From Gemmatimonadota bacterium (GTDB lineage: Bacteria > Latescibacterota > UBA2968 > UBA8231): a stretch of 9,649 nucleotides of DNA. The stretch covers positions 2,884 to 12,532 of the forward strand of contig PATE01000096.1 of assembly GCA_002712305.1 (NCBI GenBank). Direction: 5' to 3'. Below are positions 1 to 9,430 of the stretch, one piece after another (positions within the stretch are counted from its first letter, which is position 1; each line of letters starts with the position of its first letter). The notes under the pieces are model-generated. The model saw only the letters and a list, made by a program, of their open reading frames with translations, searched no databases and was not told the DNA's origin. The position numbers and the translations under genes were made by a program.

Positions 1-1843
1 GATAGGCCGCCACACGTACGACATAGGATCGTGGTGTCTCGATGATTTCGAAGAGAGGAACATCCGCCTCAAATTGAGGCTCCCCCACCTCCGACTGTGG
101 TTCCTGGGAATCCATCCGCGCGTCGGCAGCCAATCTCTCAACATCAGATGGGGCCGCGTCGGTGACCTGGGGTTCGACCGGGACCAGGCCCTGGGGTTCG
201 GGCGTGGGCATACGCTGCGGATCGACTCGCTCGACAGGATCGGCCAGAGTTTGAGGCGGCTGCGAAGTCATTCTAGGCTGTGCGGACAACCCCTCGGCTG
301 TCGGCTCCATCGACAACAGGCCCGGCAGCACGCCGCTCTGCCACGAGACGCCCACAGCAGCCACAGCCAGGGCAACGTAGGTGACGAGTCTTCTCCCCAG
401 ACCCGATCCGCCATCCTCCTCATCGTAGTCGTCCTCATCCTCGAGGTCGTCGCTGTCGACATCGGCGGCGGCATCTGGATTGATGTAGGGCGGAGGAACG
501 TGATCGTCCTCGCCGATGCCGAGTCGTTTTCCCCAACGCCTCGACCAGTCCCGGACTTTTTGCTCAAGGGTGCGCTCCGGCGTATCGAGGGTCTCTGCAA
601 CCACGGCGAAGACCACGCCCAGAACCAGCCCCAGCAGCACCCCCATGATGGCGCGACGCATCGAATAGTGTGGATTGGTCGGAATCGAGGGCGTCAGAGC
701 CCACTCAAGGACCGAGACTTCTTCGACCTTGTCTGCCTCACGAATGAGCGCTTCCTGATAGGACTCCTCCAGGACGGTGACCACCTCCTGCCGTATCGCC
801 ACTTCGCGCTGGAGTCGACTCAACTCCAGGCCCATGGAGGGCAGGAGATTGTATTGTTCGCGCAGATTTGCCAGACGCACTCGCTCTGCGTCCAGATCTC
901 GACGCATCGCTTCGCGGCGCTGACGCAATTCGCCGGTCAGATCACCTGTGAGTTGATCGATCTTCACCTGCACGCGTCGCACATTCGGATGGTCCGGCGT
1001 CAACTGCACCAGCAATGCGTCGCGCTGCAGTCTCTGGTCGTTCAGGTTGCGACTCAGCGACATGAACGTCTCGCCGACACGTCGGACGGAAGTCCCCTGC
1101 AGGGTCCGCTCCGACAGGCCGCCACTCGACTCCATTTCGGCGACCATGACATCGATAGCGGCCAGATCCTGCACGAGTCGCTGCTCCTCACGCTCGGAGC
1201 TTCTGATGCCCTGGAGATTGACGCTGGCCTGGCTCTCCAGAGAGATCAGTTCGCTTCGTTCCCGATAGAGCCGCACCGCCTCTTCCGCCTTCTCCAGCAT
1301 CGAACGGGCATTGGAACGCTGCATCTCCACAAACTCTCGATGCCGAACGGCCTGCTGATTCTTCAACTCGTGGTCGTAGTCGCGATAGACCCGAGAGAGG
1401 GTGTTGGCCATGTCTCGGGCCCGTTCGGGCACCGGATGTTTGGCCGACACGGTGATGATGTTCGTGAAGCCCTCTTGGGAAGTCGTAATGATCCGCTGAA
1501 GATCCTGAAGAATCAGGGCCGAATCAGGAGCGGTCGTGTTTCTTGTCAGCAGACCCAGCTCGGCCGCCGTCCGGCGCAGGACCGGCTGGCTTGTGATAAT
1601 CGTCTGCTGCGTCTCGATCTGATCGCCGGAGTTATAGGCGATCGTCTGGAGATAGAGACCGGTCAGATTGTGGTGAAGATTGATCTGGACCTTGGCCGTC
1701 GCCTGATAGAGAGGCTGGGGTTTCCAGATCGATGCCAGAAGGAAGCTGAAGAAACCAAGAAGGAACGCCGTAAAGACGACGATCCCCTTGCGCCGACGAA
1801 GGATGCGCCAATAGTCGCGGAGAGTGACTTCGTACTGAGCCAT
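1..1843 (-). CDS. Wzz/GumC-type polysaccharide chain-length determinant with likely C-terminal SPOR domain (3' end cut by window)
   Basis: A reading frame of at least 614 codons runs from the ATG at 1843 to the window edge without a stop. Residues 1-20 (LRDYWRILRRRKG) resemble the Wzz N-terminus. TM1 is at about 21-40. A long, charged, probably coiled-coil periplasmic region follows, with a GNVR-like motif LTPDHPNV at about 281-288. A Pro-containing stretch leads into TM2 at about 398-417. This is the usual layout of Wzz/GumC proteins, which set O-antigen or exopolysaccharide length in the inner membrane. Instead of a Walker-type tyrosine kinase there is an acidic linker (461-477, almost all D/E), a third hydrophobic segment (about 486-510), a Pro/Gln-rich stretch, and YVVRVAAY at 607-614, which looks like the first strand of a SPOR domain. 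With three membrane passes, that C-terminus would be periplasmic, as SPOR requires. An in-frame TGA lies just upstream, so this ATG is the only sensible start; its Shine-Dalgarno is weak. Wzz assignment is firm; SPOR is inferred from eight residues. Confidence 0.85.
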   Translation of the reverse strand, partial: MAQYEVTLRDYWRILRRRKGIVVFTAFLLGFFSFLLASIWKPQPLYQATAKVQINLHHNLTGLYLQTIAYNSGDQIETQQTIITSQPVLRRTAAELGLLTRNTTAPDSALILQDLQRIITTSQEGFTNIITVSAKHPVPERARDMANTLSRVYRDYDHELKNQQAVRHREFVEMQRSNARSMLEKAEEAVRLYRERSELISLESQASVNLQGIRSSEREEQRLVQDLAAIDVMVAEMESSGGLSERTLQGTSVRRVGETFMSLSRNLNDQRLQRDALLVQLTPDHPNVRRVQVKIDQLTGDLTGELRQRREAMRRDLDAERVRLANLREQYNLLPSMGLELSRLQREVAIRQEVVTVLEESYQEALIREADKVEEVSVLEWALTPSIPTNPHYSMRRAIMGVLLGLVLGVVFAVVAETLDTPERTLEQKVRDWSRRWGKRLGIGEDDHVPPPYINPDAAADVDSDDLEDEDDYDEEDGGSGLGRRLVTYVALAVAAVGVSWQSGVLPGLLSMEPTAEGLSAQPRMTSQPPQTLADPVERVDPQRMPTPEPQGLVPVEPQVTDAAPSDVERLAADARMDSQEPQSEVGEPQFEADVPLFEIIETPRSYVVRVAAY

Positions 1844-1916: not shown

Positions 1917-2726
1917 TTATCGACGTCGTCCTTTTTCAATGCGAGCACTACGGCCGAACGTCATCTCTTCAGGTTTGGGGTCCACGCGCCGCGTTGCTTC
2001 ACCAGCGATCGATGGGCCTCGACCGCCGCCCCCCCCACCACCACCGCTGCGCTCAGGCCGTTCCCCACGCTCACGTCGGCCACCGCCCTCCGAGCGACGT
2101 CCTCCATCGCGACCACCCCCCTGACCCCGGGGGCGTCGCCGAGGGCGCTCGCCTTCCTCCTCGTCGTCACGTCTCGGAGGTGCTCCTTCGATCTCGACAA
2201 TCTCACCGACAAACTTTGCGTCGAGGGTGCGCGTGAGCACGACCTCGCCCCGCTCCCAGAATTGGACACCGTCGCCGGCCGCTTCGGCCGCCTTGATCTC
2301 GACGAGGGACGGGTGGTCCATCGAGCCAGATCGCGACACAGCTGAGTCCCGACTCGCTGACAGATGGAGGTAGAAACGATCCTCAGGTCGAATCCCTTCA
2401 TCCTTCATGACCGCCGCCGCCTCCGTCGTGGCGATCATATAGAGACAGTCCGGCGGCGTCATCGGCTCGCCATCCATCTCTACGTAGAAGCTGTGCGCAT
2501 AGAGGGCGCGGATCCCATCGTCGGTGATCTCGAATCGCCGCTGACGGGAGGTCTCCACAAGGTCCCGGATATCCTCTTCCTGTACGGCCGAATAACGTTG
2601 CTGAACGGCCTCGACGACTTCATCGAAAGGAATGAAACCAAACTCATCCATCTTGAGGCCGAATTCGTCTGGCCGATGACGCAGGATGAGGGAAAGAAGC
2701 TTGGAAATGCGTCTGCGATCTGGCAC
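1917..2726 (-). CDS. kptA: Divergent RNA 2'-phosphotransferase (KptA/Tpt1 family) with Arg/Gly-rich tail
   Basis: The 269-residue protein starts at GTG, 11 bases after AAGGA. KptA/Tpt1 enzymes transfer an RNA 2'-phosphate to NAD+, giving 2'-OH RNA and ADP-ribose 1'',2''-cyclic phosphate. Residues 7-17 (ISKLLSLILRH) match the family's N-terminal motif. DDGIRALYAHS (69-79) matches the IRAxQGHS region, and EDRFYLHLS (115-123) the RxhVHLS region. FWERGEVVLT (156-165) fits the C-terminal FWxxxNGVWLT. The Arg-His-Arg-Arg catalytic set therefore looks intact (R16, H17, R73, R117). Two deviations stand out: the conserved LYHGT reads LYMIAT (95-100), losing His and Gly, and QGHS reads YAHS. After the domain ends near 180, residues 184-237 are dominated by Arg and Gly, including eight Gly in a row, and a short basic end follows. 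Such tails often bind RNA; that role here is inference. The gene lies between purE and the Wzz gene on the same strand. Confidence 0.82.
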   Translation of the reverse strand: MPDRRRISKLLSLILRHRPDEFGLKMDEFGFIPFDEVVEAVQQRYSAVQEEDIRDLVETSRQRRFEITDDGIRALYAHSFYVEMDGEPMTPPDCLYMIATTEAAAVMKDEGIRPEDRFYLHLSASRDSAVSRSGSMDHPSLVEIKAAEAAGDGVQFWERGEVVLTRTLDAKFVGEIVEIEGAPPRRDDEEEGERPRRRPRGQGGGRDGGRRSEGGGRRERGERPERSGGGGGGGGRGPSIAGEATRRVDPKPEEMTFGRSARIEKGRRR

Positions 2727-2804: not shown

Positions 2805-3257
2805 CTACTGATTCCACTGCTCTCGGTATTTGAGCAGTGCTGCTTGGATTTGGTCATCCTGCAACGCCAGAATCTGGCCCGCGAGTACGGCCGCATTCCG
2901 GCTGTTGTCGATTCCGACGGTTGCCACGGGCACCCCGGGTGGCATCTGCACGATACTGTAGAGTGAATCCACACCATTGAGCGCCCCTGAAGCGATGGGC
3001 ACTCCAATCACTGGAACTGTGGTGTGCGCGGCGACAACGCCCGGTAGGGCTGCGGCCAACCCCGCCCCCGCAATGATCACCTTGATTCCGCGACCTGCTG
3101 CTTCACTAGCCCAGGTGGCGGTGCGCTCCGGATTCCGGTGAGCGGAAGAAACCACGGTCTCGTGCGTGATTCCCAACTCATCGAGAACGGCGACAGCTTT
3201 GTCCATCACCCCTTGATCAGAGGGGCTTCCCATAATGATTCCAACTGTGGCACTCAA
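2805..3257 (-). CDS. purE: N5-carboxyaminoimidazole ribonucleotide mutase (PurE, class I-like)
   Basis: PurE rearranges N5-CAIR to CAIR in de novo purine synthesis, in the cytoplasm. The 150-residue protein is of typical length. Motifs in order: [10 protein letters not shown] near the N-terminus; SAHRNPE (family SAHRTPE, with the catalytic His); [29 protein letters not shown]; and [17 protein letters not shown], a class I hallmark. One family position is changed: the usual AGAGGAAHLPG reads [11 protein letters not shown], so the second conserved His is Ala. I chose the TTG at 3257 because AAGGA sits 8 bases upstream and the core beta strand begins four residues later. The frame is open to an ATG at 3320, but that would add 21 non-family residues and has no clear binding site. 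No purK is visible in the window, although class I PurE normally works with PurK. A 198-base gap separates it from ftsZ, so it may have its own promoter. Confidence 0.93.
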
Positions 3258-3265
3258 GCTCACAT

Positions 3266-3270
3266 TCCTT
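3266..3270 (-). promoter_or_regulatory. Ribosome binding site deciding the TTG start of purE
   Basis: AAGGA on the minus strand, 8 bases upstream of TTG at 3257. A GTG nine bases earlier is only 2 bases from this site, and the ATG at 3320 lies upstream of it, so the TTG is the best-placed start. Confidence 0.6.
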
Positions 3271-3387
3271 AATTCAAAGAGTGAAAGTGGGTTTGTTTTG
3301 ACCGAAGAGTCCGCATCCACTCACATCGCCAGACACTGATGGCAAGCAGATGTAAGCTGTCGGCGGACAAAGAGTTACGGACCGGCC

Positions 3388-3455: not shown

Positions 3456-4631
3456 TCACCCCATCTTCCGGCGCAAGATGGCGGGATACTCCAGGTCTTC
3501 GCTCCACTGCGTCTCGTTTCCCGCCTTGGTCTCGGCCTCCAACGCGCGACGCGGCGTCCGCAGGACTCGGCCGGGACGCTGCTCTGGCTCCTGAGCCGGA
3601 ACAATCTCTTCAGGATGCGCAGATGGCGCCATCTGAGGCTGCATCTGTGACTGGGGAACGAACTTGCCATCCTTGTTGAGATGGAAACCGGTGGCGATGA
3701 CGGTTACTCGCAACTCGTCAACCATCGACTCATCGATCACGGTGCCAAAGATGATGTTCGCCTCACTGCCAGCGGCTTCCTGAATGATCGATGCCGCTTC
3801 GTTGGCTTCATACAACGTAAGGTTGGCACCGGCGGAGATATTGATGAGTGCACCCTTCGCTCCATCGATGGAGATCTCTTCGATCAACGGACTCTTGATC
3901 GCCTTCTTTGCTGCCTCCAATGCTCTACCTTCACCACGATGGGCGCCCACGCCGATAATGGCATCTCCCCCTTCGGTGATGACGGTCCTCACATCGTTGA
4001 AGTCGAGATTGATCATGCCCGGGATCGTGATAAGGTCAGCGATTCCACGGGTGGCTTGCAGCAACACCTCATCCGCCTTGGCAAATGCTTCTTCGAGCGT
4101 CGTATCCCGCGAGCAGACCTGCAGAAGTCGCTGGTTCTTGATGACGATGAGCGTATCCACGTGCTCTTGCAGCTCGGCGATCCCCGCCTGCGCATTGCGC
4201 ATTCGCGGGAACCCCTCGAACTGGAAAGGTTCGGTGACGATGCCGACGGTGAGCGCACCCTGCTCTTTGGCGATCTGAGCCACCACCGGTGCCGCCCCGG
4301 TTCCCGTGCCACCACCCATGCCCGCTGTGATGAAGACCAAGTCCGTATCTGCGAGTTTTTCGGCGACCTTCTCGCGATCCTCCTCGATGGACTGTCGACC
4401 AATCTCGGGCTTGGCACCGGCACCAAGGCCGCGAGTCACGCTTTCGCCGATGCAGAGGCAGTGATCGGCGGCGGACACTTCGAGATCTTGACTGTCAGTA
4501 TTGACGGCGACGAACTCGACGCCATGCATGCCTGACTGCACCATGCGGTTTATGGCATTGCCACCGGCACCGCCAACACCGACAACCTTGATACTGGCGC
4601 ACGATTCGAAATCGATAATCTGGAACGTCAT
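3456..4631 (-). CDS. ftsZ: Cell division GTPase FtsZ
   Basis: FtsZ is the tubulin-like GTPase that polymerises into the cytokinetic ring. The protein has 391 residues. The nucleotide-binding loop GGAGGNA is at 20-26, the tubulin signature GGGTGTG at 106-112, and the T7 loop NLDFND at 208-213 with the catalytic Asp residues D210 and D213. The globular core ends near VTVIATGF (309-316). A variable linker rich in Gln, Pro and Glu covers about 317-378. The C-terminal peptide LEYPAILRRK (380-389) matches the family's D-P-x-F-L-R-R type peptide that binds FtsA. A small deviation is IKNQRLL (164-170) where most FtsZ have IPNDRLL. The ATG at 4631 is fixed by GGGGGAGG seven bases upstream, by far the strongest binding site in the window, in keeping with the high FtsZ demand of cells. 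It follows ftsA after 91 bases. Confidence 0.98.
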   Translation of the reverse strand: MTFQIIDFESCASIKVVGVGGAGGNAINRMVQSGMHGVEFVAVNTDSQDLEVSAADHCLCIGESVTRGLGAGAKPEIGRQSIEEDREKVAEKLADTDLVFITAGMGGGTGTGAAPVVAQIAKEQGALTVGIVTEPFQFEGFPRMRNAQAGIAELQEHVDTLIVIKNQRLLQVCSRDTTLEEAFAKADEVLLQATRGIADLITIPGMINLDFNDVRTVITEGGDAIIGVGAHRGEGRALEAAKKAIKSPLIEEISIDGAKGALINISAGANLTLYEANEAASIIQEAAGSEANIIFGTVIDESMVDELRVTVIATGFHLNKDGKFVPQSQMQPQMAPSAHPEEIVPAQEPEQRPGRVLRTPRRALEAETKAGNETQWSEDLEYPAILRRKMG

Positions 4632-4722: not shown

Positions 4723-5928
4723 TCAGAGAAATCCTTCCAACCACGAGCGCATGCGCCCTGCGGTGGCGTCAAAGCGAGTGACAAGTTCGTTGGACGAGGT
4801 AGTGCGCCCGTCACGGGCGCTGAGCACGAGTCCCATGGCAGTCGCCCACTCCGGTTCGGCCAGACCGTCTCCGATACCGGGTCGAGGCTCGGGCGTCACG
4901 ATGCGTACAGAGGTCTGTAGAACCCGTTCGGCGACATCGGCGGCCTGTCGAAGCTGGCAGCCACCACCGGTCAATACGAAACCTGCTCTTGGTGATGTCC
5001 GTTCCTGCAGATCGAGCCCCTGGGCCACGAGGGAGAACAGTTCCTCGAAACGCGCCTCGCAGATCTCCCAGACATCCGCAGGGTCCACACGCTCGGGCGT
5101 CCGGTCGGCCACACCAGCCACCTGCAGCGCATCCTCTGCACTGAGGGCAAACTGCCGCTTCAGCGTCTCTGCGTGATTCCAGCTAGTGCGCAGGCAGACG
5201 GCCAGGTCACCCGTGACCTGTTGTCCACCGATGGGGACGACGTGGGTTCGCACAACGGCGCCCTCCTGGAAGCAGACGGCATCCGTCGTTCCGCCCCCCA
5301 GGTCGATGAGTCCCACACCCATGTCGAGATCGTCTTCGGTCAGGCACGCACGCGCCGCCGCCAGAGGACTGAACACGAGATCCGTCACCTGCAGCCCCGC
5401 ACGCTCCACGCAGGCCACCAGATTGCGGACGGCGGTGACGCCACCCGTGACGATGTGAACACGCGAGCTGAGTCGCACACCAGACATGCCGACGGGATTC
5501 TGGATTCTGTGCTGATCGTCGACGTCAAAATCCTGCGGCAACACGTGCAGAATCTCATGCTCGAAGGGAATCGCTACGGTTCGGGCTGCGTCGACTGCCC
5601 GCTGACGGTCGCCTGACGATATAGTGCCTTCACGCCCCTCAACCGCGACAGCCCCCTGACTCTGCAGAGCGTTCACGTGCTCGCCCGAGATCGAAACCGT
5701 CGCTCGATCAACCTGTTCGCCGGACGCCATCTTCGCCTGCCCCAGGGCCTGACGAACCGCCGAGCTGAGACGGTCTGCGTCTACCACGACGCCGTGGCGC
5801 ACTCCCAGGCTAGGTGCAGATCCGACACCGATCACATCCAACTGCGAGCCCCCCGCCTCAGCGAGGACGACCCGCACCATGGTCGAACCGATATCGACAC
5901 CGGCCAGTAGCGTGTTCGACTCAACCAT
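4723..5928 (-). CDS. ftsA: Cell division protein FtsA
   Basis: FtsA is the actin-like ATPase that anchors FtsZ filaments to the inner membrane and recruits later divisome proteins. The protein has 401 residues, a usual length. The phosphate-1 loop GVDIGSTMVRV is at 10-20. The FtsA-specific 1C subdomain covers about 85-165 (TVSISGEHV, then LHVLPQDFDVDD). Phosphate-2 is GLIDLGGGTTD at 206-216, the AE-x-LK motif is at 253-257, and the adenosine motif VLTGGGCQL is at 318-326. The C-terminal end from about 386, RFDATAGRMRSWLEGFL, is an amphipathic helix with Trp and Phe, the expected membrane-targeting sequence. The chosen ATG at 5928 begins just before the first beta strand. The frame is open upstream to 6246, but those codons lie inside ftsQ and do not resemble FtsA. 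The start overlaps the ftsQ stop by 8 bases and has no strong Shine-Dalgarno, which points to translational coupling. Confidence 0.97.
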   Translation of the reverse strand: MVESNTLLAGVDIGSTMVRVVLAEAGGSQLDVIGVGSAPSLGVRHGVVVDADRLSSAVRQALGQAKMASGEQVDRATVSISGEHVNALQSQGAVAVEGREGTISSGDRQRAVDAARTVAIPFEHEILHVLPQDFDVDDQHRIQNPVGMSGVRLSSRVHIVTGGVTAVRNLVACVERAGLQVTDLVFSPLAAARACLTEDDLDMGVGLIDLGGGTTDAVCFQEGAVVRTHVVPIGGQQVTGDLAVCLRTSWNHAETLKRQFALSAEDALQVAGVADRTPERVDPADVWEICEARFEELFSLVAQGLDLQERTSPRAGFVLTGGGCQLRQAADVAERVLQTSVRIVTPEPRPGIGDGLAEPEWATAMGLVLSARDGRTTSSNELVTRFDATAGRMRSWLEGFL

Positions 5929-6817
5929 GGGAGACGACCTGTTCTTCAGATGATGCGGGACGTCTGGCACGGGAATTCTCTGACCTTCGCGACGTTCCCA
6001 CGACAGCCTGGCCGTTGTATCGCAAATCGACGTAGATCGCATCAGGCACATCGTGATAGACCCGATCCAGAACGCCCAGCAGAGCTTGTAAGCAGTCGTC
6101 GTCGGCCCGGGGCAGACGCACCTCCAGATCATCGGCGACCAAGTGAAGTCGCAGGGAGCCCTCTTCGAGGGGCATGATCTCTGAAATCTCCGGCACCAGA
6201 TCGGGCGCGTTTCGACGGACACGCAGCCACCACGCCAGGAGGCCACTCACATCCAACTGCTCCGGCAATCGTTCACCCACAACCGGCTCCCAGGAATCCG
6301 GCTCGGCTGAAATCGCTGAAGAGATGCCATCGTGAGGACGGATGACGGGCAGATCCAGATCCGTCACCCCTTCGGTAGTGAGACGGCCACGAGGAAGGAC
6401 CACCCCCTCCTCATCCAGACCGAACAATTCGCCCTGCCAATCGAGCCAGGCGATCCTGCGTCGCTCTGTGAGCGTAACGACTAGGCGGTCGGGCGGTCGG
6501 CGTTCAACACGGGCGCTGCAAACCCAGACCAGTTCACCGATCCGGGCGGCGACGTCGTCCAGATCCGCATCGAAAATGCTGTCCTCTGGGCGCAGCCCGC
6601 TGGCGGTGAGAATCTCCTCACCGGAGAGCAGACGCAGCCCGTGCACCTCGAGAGCAAACAGCCGATACCCGGGGACCTCACCCAGGGCGTGGCGCGCCGC
6701 CAGTCCACCTGCCACGACGGTACCGATGCCGAACATCAGGAACGCGGCAACGATCACGCGACGACGTCTATGTGTACCCGCGGTCTTGGAGGTAAGGGGG
6801 CGCTTGGTCCGTGCCAT
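5921..6817 (-). CDS. ftsQ: Cell division protein FtsQ (DivIB family)
   Basis: FtsQ is a bitopic inner-membrane protein that scaffolds the divisome and binds FtsB/FtsL. The protein has 298 residues. The N-terminus is short and strongly basic (RRRR at 17-20), and a single TM spans about 21-43. A POTRA domain covers about 51-122: YRLFALEVHGLRLLSGEEIL opens it, and VERRPPDRLVVTLTER carries the usual final strand. The beta domain follows and ends with YVDLRYNGQAVVG (262-274), typical of FtsQ. About 24 basic, polar residues follow as a tail. The start at 6817 is one base after the murC stop (TAACATG), with AGAGG 9 bases before it inside murC. The longer open frame to 6982 is within murC and unlike FtsQ. 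The 3' end overlaps ftsA by 8 bases. murB and ddl, often found between murC and ftsQ, are absent here. Confidence 0.95.
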   Translation of the reverse strand: MARTKRPLTSKTAGTHRRRRVIVAAFLMFGIGTVVAGGLAARHALGEVPGYRLFALEVHGLRLLSGEEILTASGLRPEDSIFDADLDDVAARIGELVWVCSARVERRPPDRLVVTLTERRRIAWLDWQGELFGLDEEGVVLPRGRLTTEGVTDLDLPVIRPHDGISSAISAEPDSWEPVVGERLPEQLDVSGLLAWWLRVRRNAPDLVPEISEIMPLEEGSLRLHLVADDLEVRLPRADDDCLQALLGVLDRVYHDVPDAIYVDLRYNGQAVVGTSRRSENSRARRPASSEEQVVSHG

Positions 6818-6818
6818 G

Positions 6819-8204
6819 TTACGACGCCTCTGCCCGGCGAAGAGACAACACGTCGTCGAGGCGATCCCCGACGTCTCCGGCGCCCATGACCAACAGCAGG
6901 TCTCCCTCTGAACACCGATCGAGAGCCGTCGAGATCGCGGAGGTCGGATGGGCCTCGTCCCGTGCAACCACGCCACGCTCACGCAACGCGTCCGTCAAGA
7001 GGCTCGAGGTCACACCGGCGATGGGTGCTTCACGCGCTGCGTAGATCTCACATACCGTCACTTCATCTGCAAGACTCAGGGCGTCGACAAAGTCATCGAG
7101 TAGATGCTGGGTTCGTGAGTAGAGGTGGGGTTGAAACACGGCCACCACACGGCGATCCGTGCCACGAGCCCATCGCAGGGCGGCGGCAACCTCGGTCGGA
7201 TGATGGGCGTAGTCGTCGACCACGAGTGTTCCATGGAGCTCGGCTTTTGTCTGCAGGCGCCGATCGACACCCCGGAAGCCCGTCAGCCCATCGTCGACGG
7301 CAGACCAGGGCCACCCCATTCGGTCGGCGACGGCAATGGCGGTCATGGCGTTGTCCACGTTGTGCTGTCCACGTGCGGCCAACTGCACAGCAGGGCGGGC
7401 CTCCCCACCGACCTTGACCTGCAATTGGCAGTGGTCCGTCCCCACCACGACATCCTGCAACTGCACGTGGGCGCGCGGGCCACCGCACAGGGTCACTGGT
7501 GCCTTTGAGCGCGCCGCGACCTGCACACATCGCGGTTCATCGTGAGTGACGATCCAGTCACTCGTCTGCCCGAGGAACGAAGTGAATGCGTCGTCCAACG
7601 CCGCATCATCCGCATACGTGTCGTGGTGGTCAGCCTCGATATTCGTCACCACCGCACCCATGGGGTGAAGAGACAGGAAGCTGCGATCGTACTCGTCGGC
7701 TTCAGCCACAAGCAGATCGTCCTGTCCAGTGGCGGCCAGACTCGCGCCGGACTGCCATCCTCCCACAACCACGCCGGGGTCCTGGCCCGCGGCGCGGGCC
7801 ACGGCGACGATCATACTCGACGTCGTGGTCTTTCCGTGCGTTCCAGCGACAGCGATCATCGGACGCTGACGCGAAAACCACCCCAGCAACTGGGCTCGAG
7901 ATAAGACTTGGCCGACCTGATCACGCGCTGCCCGCAATTCCGGATTGTCCTCGGTGACGGCCGCAGAATACACCACAATGTCTGCCCCTTCGACGCGGGC
8001 AGAATCGTGTGCCCCTGTCCAGACATCGATCCCATGTGTCCGAAGAGACTGGACGACCTCCCCATCCGCCTGATCCGACCCTCTTACATCATGGCCCGCG
8101 TGCTGCAGCAGGCGCGCCAGCGGTTCCATGCCGGCGCCACCGATACCGATCATGTGCACGGCCCTGGAGCCCGTGAGGTCAACAAGAGGCAGTTGAGATT
8201 CCAT
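6819..8204 (-). CDS. murC: UDP-N-acetylmuramate--L-alanine ligase
   Basis: MurC adds L-alanine to UDP-MurNAc with ATP, the first step of stem-peptide synthesis, in the cytoplasm. The protein has 461 residues, as usual for the family. The N-terminal Rossmann motif HMIGIGGAGM is at 17-26. The ATP P-loop GTHGKTTT is at 121-128. EADEYDRSFL is at 168-177 (family EADESDxSFL), NIEADHHDTY at 188-197 and GQHNVDNAMTAI at 279-290. The C-terminal domain has DDYAHHPTEV (330-339), FQPHLYSRT (357-365) and MGAGD (440-444). All three Mur-ligase domains are complete. The ATG at 8204 is two bases after the ftsW stop, with GGAG 12 bases upstream. The frame is open to 8384 inside ftsW, but those 60 codons do not look like MurC. 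It is tightly coupled to ftsQ downstream. Confidence 0.97.
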   Translation of the reverse strand: MESQLPLVDLTGSRAVHMIGIGGAGMEPLARLLQHAGHDVRGSDQADGEVVQSLRTHGIDVWTGAHDSARVEGADIVVYSAAVTEDNPELRAARDQVGQVLSRAQLLGWFSRQRPMIAVAGTHGKTTTSSMIVAVARAAGQDPGVVVGGWQSGASLAATGQDDLLVAEADEYDRSFLSLHPMGAVVTNIEADHHDTYADDAALDDAFTSFLGQTSDWIVTHDEPRCVQVAARSKAPVTLCGGPRAHVQLQDVVVGTDHCQLQVKVGGEARPAVQLAARGQHNVDNAMTAIAVADRMGWPWSAVDDGLTGFRGVDRRLQTKAELHGTLVVDDYAHHPTEVAAALRWARGTDRRVVAVFQPHLYSRTQHLLDDFVDALSLADEVTVCEIYAAREAPIAGVTSSLLTDALRERGVVARDEAHPTSAISTALDRCSEGDLLLVMGAGDVGDRLDDVLSLRRAEAS

Positions 8205-8206
8205 GA

Positions 8207-9430
8207 TCACCGAGGGCTCCAAGGCAGAGGCAACACCGACCAGCGACGTCGACGACGACTGTGCGCATGGCGATGGTCCGCCGCCGGTCGCCAGGTGACG
8301 GGCGACAAGGCCGCTCGCATACCCGATTTGTCCTCCTGTTCGCGTGCGACGGCGGAGAGAATCCCGAGACCACACAGATTCCACAGCAGCGCCGAGCCGC
8401 CATAACTGATAAAGGGCAACGGCAGCCCCGTCGTCGGCGCCAGACCGGTCGCGACAGCAACATTCAACAGGGCGCAGACGGAGATCATCATCGTGACCCC
8501 CGCGGCCGTGGAGAAACCAAAATCAGATCGGGCACCAGCGGCGATACGGAAGCCGTGGAGAGCCAATGCGATGAACAGGCCTATGATACTCAGGGTGCCA
8601 AACAGGCCCAGTTCCTCACCGGCGAAAGCGAAGACGAAGTCGGTATGCGGTTCGGGCAGGAAGTATTTCTGCATGCTATTGCCAAGCCCCACACCGACCC
8701 ACCCCCCGCTCCCCAGGGCCAGTTCGGCCTGCGCAATCTGAAATCCGGCGCCCTGCGGATCCGCGTCGCCAAAAAATGTCAGCAAACGCTGCAGCTGATA
8801 CGGTGAAGTCAGGACCGACACCATGATGACGGGCAGCCCCGCGATACCCACGCAGGCCAGATGCGCCGGGCGAGCGCCGCCGATCCACAACATGAACAGT
8901 GCGATGGTACCGATAGCCAACGCCGTTCCGAGATCGGGCTGGAGAACGATGAGTCCCAGTACGATAGCGATGATGAGCAGTCGGGGCAGCAGCCCGTGCT
9001 GCCAATCCGTCATCAGTTCGCGGTGGCGGACCATCACATCGGCCAGATACAGTACGAGAACCAGTTTGGCGAATTCAGAGGGCTGGAACGTGATCTGTGC
9101 CACGGGGAGGCGAAAGGGCAACCACCGTTGGGCACCCTTGCCCTCGCCAAAAAGCAGCACGAGTACAAGCAGTCCGATCACGCCGATCAGAAGAGGCCGC
9201 GCAAGACGCCGCCACCATCCCAACGGCACACGGGAGATGGCAAACATGATCAGTAGGCCGAAAGCTGCCCGTAGTAGCTGGCGATGGAGGAAGAAACCCG
9301 CATCATGAAAACGCGTTCCGGCCAGGGCGGAACTCGAACTGTACACCATGACCACGCCGATACCGACGAGGACGACGGCGATCAGGAGAACCTGCCGAGC
9401 CGCACGCTCTGCGGGAGAACTAGTGGACAA
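8207..9430 (-). CDS. ftsW: Lipid II polymerase FtsW (SEDS family) with unusual basic C-terminal tail
   Basis: FtsW is the septal SEDS peptidoglycan glycosyltransferase, working with a class B PBP. The 407-residue protein has about ten hydrophobic segments. Motifs in order: GAQRWLPF (99-106), QPSEFAKLVLVLYLAD (116-131), LQPDLGTAL (163-171), PYQLQRLLTFF (210-220), GVGLGNSMQKYFLPEPHTDF (246-265, with the family's Asp at 264) and PTTGLPLPFISYGGSALL (332-349). The start is a TTG at 9430, directly after an in-frame TGA. It places about 12 residues before TM1, as expected, but I see no clear Shine-Dalgarno. FtsW proteins usually end soon after the ILSAVARE stretch. Here about 44 further residues follow, with five Arg in a row at 392-396 and no relation to FtsW. 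This tail covers the position where murG would normally begin. RodA is the main alternative; the murC/ftsQ context favours FtsW. Confidence 0.95.
   Translation of the reverse strand: MSTSSPAERAARQVLLIAVVLVGIGVVMVYSSSSALAGTRFHDAGFFLHRQLLRAAFGLLIMFAISRVPLGWWRRLARPLLIGVIGLLVLVLLFGEGKGAQRWLPFRLPVAQITFQPSEFAKLVLVLYLADVMVRHRELMTDWQHGLLPRLLIIAIVLGLIVLQPDLGTALAIGTIALFMLWIGGARPAHLACVGIAGLPVIMVSVLTSPYQLQRLLTFFGDADPQGAGFQIAQAELALGSGGWVGVGLGNSMQKYFLPEPHTDFVFAFAGEELGLFGTLSIIGLFIALALHGFRIAAGARSDFGFSTAAGVTMMISVCALLNVAVATGLAPTTGLPLPFISYGGSALLWNLCGLGILSAVAREQEDKSGMRAALSPVTWRPAADHRHAHSRRRRRWSVLPLPWSPR
8320..8337 (-). promoter_or_regulatory. Perfect Shine-Dalgarno plus ATG inside the 3' end of ftsW, without a matching gene
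   Basis: The minus strand has AGGAGG at 8337-8332 and ATG at 8320-8318, 11 bases apart. The ATG is in the ftsW frame and opens only 37 codons before the ftsW stop at 8207. This is where murG starts in the common ftsW-murG-murC order, so it may be the remnant of a lost murG start. It could also be a chance purine stretch coding for Gln-Glu-Asp. Confidence 0.3.

Follow-up and report, generated by a model that had tools for sequence, protein, structure and literature searches.

The gene at the edge of the window (the whole 9,649-nucleotide stretch of DNA analysed, G000:C15:2884-12532) is, judging from its sequence and that of its relatives, a member of a family of tyrosine kinases for polysaccharide export, so far undescribed, that have a third transmembrane segment (TM3) and a SPOR domain. 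The reading that we favor, with a probability of roughly 0.6, is that the protein is a Wzc-like export kinase that has been extended by TM3 and a periplasmic SPOR domain and is anchored to septal peptidoglycan. No description of a SPOR domain on a Wzz or BY-kinase protein was found in a literature search that had most subscription papers outside its reach; the only paper combining SPOR with Wzc was a genome paper naming each once.

Domain architecture and the SPOR domain

The window is cut at base 1 because the adjacent contig base, 2883, is an N. When the contig was read past this point, the ORF ended at G000:C15:2531 and comprised 731 amino acids in total, with 10 N bases. Its order is a Wzz/GNVR core, an acidic linker, a third TM segment, a Pro/Gln-rich stretch, and a SPOR-like domain (Table 1). 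The original prediction, made from the window alone, described a normal Wzz core with two TM segments and a GNVR motif. Both domains scored above their cut-offs and were flanked by TM1 and TM2 (aa 398-416), which identifies the ORF as a Wzz-type polysaccharide co-polymerase. The Asp/Glu run and the strand at the window edge were as described. The hydrophobic segment proposed as a third TM had its best 19-mer at aa 492-510 (KD 1.51) and was a TM helix in the model of the congener. The C-terminus, expected to form a SPOR domain, did not end early; the continuation (YVVRVAAYXPGSXWVERNLXALRQXGEDAXLSPXHXDSERYLRLLVGRF and beyond) holds the remainder of a full SPOR-like domain at G000:C15:2660-2883, followed by about 40 aa.

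Table 1. Features of the window and of related loci. Positions are those of the window unless a genome and contig are given; aa, residue of the gene at the window edge.
Feature	Position	Strand	Basis or remark
Wzz-(kinase missing)-TM3-SPOR gene	2..1843	-	614 aa in window, open at edge
Wzz, PF02706 (aa 5-96)	1556..1831	-	30.9 bits, cut-off 25.5
TM1 (about aa 21-39)	1727-1783	-	
GNVR, PF13807 (aa 343-415)	599..817	-	30.2 bits, cut-off 27.7; overlaps TM2
Junction TLDT/PERT (aa 421/422, between bases 581 and 580)	580..583	-	congener carries 885 bp BY-kinase here
Asp/Glu linker run (aa 461-477)	413..463	-	sequence
Third TM segment (aa 486-510)	314..388	-	hydrophobicity; conserved G..WQSG.L at end
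Pro/Gln-rich spacer, predicted disordered (aa 511-600)	44..313	-	sequence; low pLDDT in congener model
SPOR-like domain start (aa 602-614; strand YVVRVAAY aa 607-614)	2..40	-	
kptA/Tpt1 RNA 2'-phosphotransferase	1917..2726	-	domain search; conserved neighbor, between division genes and Wzz-SPOR gene
purE	2805..3320	-	domain search
ftsZ	3456..4631	-	domain search
ftsA, listed ORF, true start inside	4723..6246	-	domain search
ftsQ-like ORF	5921..6982	-	sequence reading; conserved position
murC, listed ORF	6819..8384	-	sequence reading; conserved position
ftsW	8207..9430	-	sequence reading; conserved position
OPX/Wza genes	G001:C96:111339, G014:C188:1188, G017:C23:8951, G004:C47:27907		
Desulfobacterota/Nitrospirota SPOR loci	L084, L086, L087, L090, L091, L093, L096, L097, L100, L135		

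A SPOR profile was built from 15 relatives, with the window's own copy and its congener left out. The own SPOR region matched this profile at 92.5 bits (E 8e-28), a match that is not due to chance because the best of 200 shuffles reached 3.7 bits. The own C-terminus alone had no match to Pfam SPOR (PF05036), owing to its divergent sequence and the N-derived residues inside the domain, which also explains why an initial search of the genome for SPOR domains missed the gene. The congener alone scored 17.6 bits against the Pfam cut-off of 21, and some close relatives also fell below it; other relatives passed. Searched against PDB sequences, profile A4 matched DedD (2.9e-5), FtsN (5.7e-4) and, weakly, CwlC (0.043). 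A model of the congener C-terminus (pLDDT 81) aligned to the SPOR domain of RlpA with a TMt of 0.71 in Foldseek. In VIA-align, 5 of the best 6 rows were SPOR domains, namely those of RlpA (two entries), DedD, DamX, and CwlC, at Z 5.8-6.9; the rows after them dropped to 4.3. Z values of this order are moderate, and the assignment therefore rests mainly on sequence. Aspartokinase regulatory domains, which topped the Foldseek list, were rejected, with a TM of about 0.35, an rmsd of 6-9, and a rank below SPOR in VIA. By homology of sequence and by modeled fold, the C-terminus of the relatives that have the tail is a SPOR domain, and that of the window copy is SPOR-like.

Selection on the two parts of the tail was compared. 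The SPOR segment had pN/pS values of 0.24 between the own copy and the congener and 0.10 between genomes G009 and G005, indicating purifying selection, whereas the Pro/Gln spacer was under much weaker constraint (0.65 and 0.39, respectively). The SPOR domain of RlpA binds denuded glycan, and a Gln in its first strand contacts the glycan (PMC6895207). This residue, which is not universal in SPOR domains, was replaced by Arg or His in the subfamily examined here and was present in several Desulfobacterota members. The ligand preference may differ because of this replacement. One Arg was invariant in the SPOR domains of the subfamily.

The kinase segment and its absence from the window copy

The homologue search covered 60 related genomes. 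The match between relatives and query was split: one part covered residues 1-428, the other ran from about residue 417 to the C-terminus, and in the relatives some 290 additional residues separated the two. Those from Candidatus Latescibacterota that reached that far were about 900-1100 aa long and carried Wzz, BY-kinase, TM3, and SPOR. In the alignment, the BY-kinase lay between TM2 and the linker and was complete in the congener and in all others reaching the region. Walker A (EGKSTT), Walker A' (LLVDxDLRKP), and Walker B (DVVLFDxPP) motifs were present, as were an ESYRTLR motif (E..R..R) and a tyrosine cluster (YYxYG), and these motifs together with the domain scores identify the relatives as Wzc-type BY-kinases. 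Pfam AAA_31 was found in 20 of 21 members, the sole exception being the window copy, and NCBIfam eps_fam matched the congener at 176 bits (cut-off 108). Pfam SPOR was found in 12 of the 21 at E<=0.01 (best 1.9e-24). Because the kinase is intact in the relatives, SPOR was added to a Wzc-type kinase and did not replace it. The expectation that a SPOR domain stood in place of a tyrosine kinase thus held for this assembled copy and failed for the relatives that reach the region.

A hydrophobic segment of TM length followed the kinase in every long-tailed member (KD 1.4-2.6). Its outer end mostly read G..WQSG.L (alignment A1), and similar W/Y-Q motifs were seen in Desulfobacterota members. Acidic linkers were common to most relatives of the same family-level group. 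In the full-length AF2 model of the congener, residues 19-39, 394-420, and 772-792 were TM helices, residues 794-885 formed a spacer lacking structure, and SPOR spanned 889-960; with a mean pLDDT of 69 and a pTM of 0.34, the model is not informative for the arrangement of the domains. Some members had two SPOR repeats, two distant members stopped after the kinase and had neither TM3 nor SPOR, and G042 had TM3 with SPOR not detected. The gene was missing from several genomes within the same family-level group, and it is therefore not essential in that group.

A domain search of the window's own ORF found no BY-kinase after TM2. The congener, G001, is 87% identical to this ORF over residues 1-428 and carries 885 bp extra, in frame and exactly over the kinase. 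The missing kinase was sought in the rest of the own assembly and was not found; two weak matches elsewhere, covering part of the domain at 35% and 31% identity, were read as ParA/MinD-like ATPases. The clean, in-frame gap, the lack of the kinase elsewhere in the assembly, and a reading frame that stays open all through SPOR would fit a true kinase-less Wzz-SPOR protein that has lost regulation by tyrosine phosphorylation and kept the wall anchor. We consider this improbable, since no kinase-less copy was seen among the relatives reaching the region and the same end of the contig is disturbed. Compared with G001, the contig end (G000:C15:1-2530) is missing the ligase gene and most of the GT4 glycosyltransferase, and the first part of WbqC and an inner part of PIG-L are fused in one ORF. 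These further gaps fall within about 3.5 kb, and among them are the 10 scattered Ns, which themselves lie in a stretch of 168 bp. Because of these nearby gaps and Ns, and because the relatives keep the kinase, its absence from the window copy most probably reflects an error or collapse in the assembly, or a recent local deletion.

Gene neighborhood and distribution

The original prediction had the gene just behind the division cluster, and gene order at the locus and in relatives bore this out. Within the same family-level group, all 11 loci whose contigs extend far enough in this direction (L061-L068, L070, L079, and L094; the contig of L063 starts inside ftsZ) showed the order ftsW-murC-ftsQ-ftsA-ftsZ-(purE)-kptA-Wzz/kinase/SPOR gene. 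They span 5 genera, the window's genome included. FtsQ identity among these loci falls to about 38%, which makes the gene order an old one in the group. Among the loci compared, no division genes were found near homologues outside this family-level group, which makes the linkage lineage-specific. A second copy in G011 had no division genes nearby and carried neither TM3 nor SPOR. In each of the 11 loci, kptA/Tpt1 separates ftsZ/purE from the Wzz-SPOR gene, for no obvious reason; the kptA/Tpt1 of the window has an Arg/Gly-rich tail.

On the other side, O-antigen ligase was the next gene in 4 of 4 relatives examined. In G001 the ligase is followed by GT4, PHP, WbqC, PIG-L, and two DegT aminotransferase genes. 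In G001, G004, G014, and G017, an OPX/Wza gene of the same orientation was observed on the far side of the division cluster, 21-25 kb upstream, and the genes between it and mraZ read as NifS/Fe-S type. LMW-PTP genes, a possible tyrosine phosphatase partner, were present in 4 of 6 genomes; the PHP gene downstream of the Wzz-SPOR gene fell below its domain cut-off. Other SPOR proteins were also present in these genomes.

In a GTDB scan, relatives came mostly from Candidatus Latescibacterota, with some records labelled Gemmatimonadetes or Handelsmanbacteria. TM3 together with SPOR above cut-off was also found in Desulfobacterota and in one Nitrospirota genome. Four TM3 kinases (L088, L089, L109, and L120) had SH3 where others have SPOR, that of L088 being just below cut-off, and L106 had an NTF2-like domain in its place. 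In a quick kinase tree, SPOR rows fell mainly in one large part, and SH3 rows either branched from within these or belonged to a different group. The tree requires 16 changes of tail type; its loci were picked by similarity to the Wzz/kinase/SPOR family, and the numbers are no census. The exchange of SPOR for SH3 suggested by these sequences fits a wall-binding role.

Proposed function and its alternatives

In FtsN, DedD, and DamX, as in the family described here, a low-complexity spacer connects the SPOR domain to a TM anchor. These proteins and RlpA share the C-terminal SPOR fold with it, but none has a polysaccharide co-polymerase or tyrosine kinase, and the family differs from them in the Arg or His at the first-strand Gln. 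Wzc (PCP-2a, E. coli K30 type) has the same succession of TM1, periplasmic Wzz/GNVR, TM2, and cytoplasmic BY-kinase with a tyrosine-rich cluster. Wzc has two TM segments and ends in a free tyrosine-rich tail, which drives a cycling between octamer and phosphorylated monomer that is proposed to regulate export (PMC8285477). In the family here, in contrast, the chain goes on past the tyrosine cluster into a linker, TM3, a spacer, and SPOR, and the gene stands behind the division cluster.

By homology, the usual export ring would consist of the Wzz/GNVR domain in the periplasm together with TM1 and TM2. If the Wzc mechanism applies, this ring would assemble and come apart in response to phosphorylation by the cytoplasmic BY-kinase, the domain seen in relatives, with its tyrosine cluster. 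The linker and TM3 are predicted to return the chain across the membrane, so that the Pro-rich spacer would put SPOR in the periplasm. SPOR would bind the septum-enriched glycan that is without stem peptides and thereby place polysaccharide polymerization and export at the division site. We infer septal placement from SPOR biology and from the linkage to the division cluster. A ring released by phosphorylation yet still anchored to the wall could, more speculatively, tie export to the progress of division.

A somewhat unlikely alternative is a general wall anchor, in which SPOR or SH3 would tie the export complex to peptidoglycan anywhere, bracing or steering the path of the polymer through the wall with no septal specificity. 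The replacement of SPOR by SH3 in relatives, a domain not known for septal specificity, and the absence of division-gene linkage outside one lineage would agree with such an anchor. However, known SPOR domains prefer denuded, septal glycan (PMC6895207), and division genes were linked in every one of the lineage's loci with flank on that side. It is very unlikely that the protein is first a division regulator, acting at the septum like FtsN, with a kinase that reports on division or controls it and with polysaccharide control secondary, as the place of its gene behind the last division genes and the influence of the BY-kinase CpsD on pneumococcal division (PMC4574921) might suggest, given the complete Wzz/GNVR domain under strong selection (pN/pS about 0.1), the O-antigen ligase and sugar genes next to it, the other SPOR proteins in these genomes, and the genomes of the same group that do without the gene.

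For a septal Wzc-like export kinase, the closest functional precedent by analogy would be pneumococcal CpsCD, which is found at the septum and organizes capsule synthesis there (PMC10233549, PMC4574921). CpsC and CpsD likewise pair a Wzz-type protein with a BY-kinase, but they are two polypeptides without SPOR, in a Gram-positive organism, and are recruited via divisome-associated proteins. The coordination of surface-polysaccharide synthesis with division in diderms is largely open, and a link between polysaccharide control and the septal wall, as originally predicted, is plausible from the sequences. The broader proposal is tentative, and we hold it at somewhat less than even odds: a transmembrane tyrosine kinase encoded with the division cluster would read septal peptidoglycan via SPOR and control surface-polysaccharide export from inside, coupling capsule or O-antigen export to septation in diderms, and wall-binding modules (SPOR, SH3) would be interchangeable across phyla. 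If this is true, the coupling is built into a single polypeptide and its gene order, compared with a pneumococcal kinase pair recruited by other proteins, and it could be tested by moving one domain. The tails of polysaccharide-export kinases would then be able to extend across the membrane and be fitted with different wall-binding modules. These data suggest that bacteria of this lineage physically tie the export of surface polysaccharide to the dividing cell wall.
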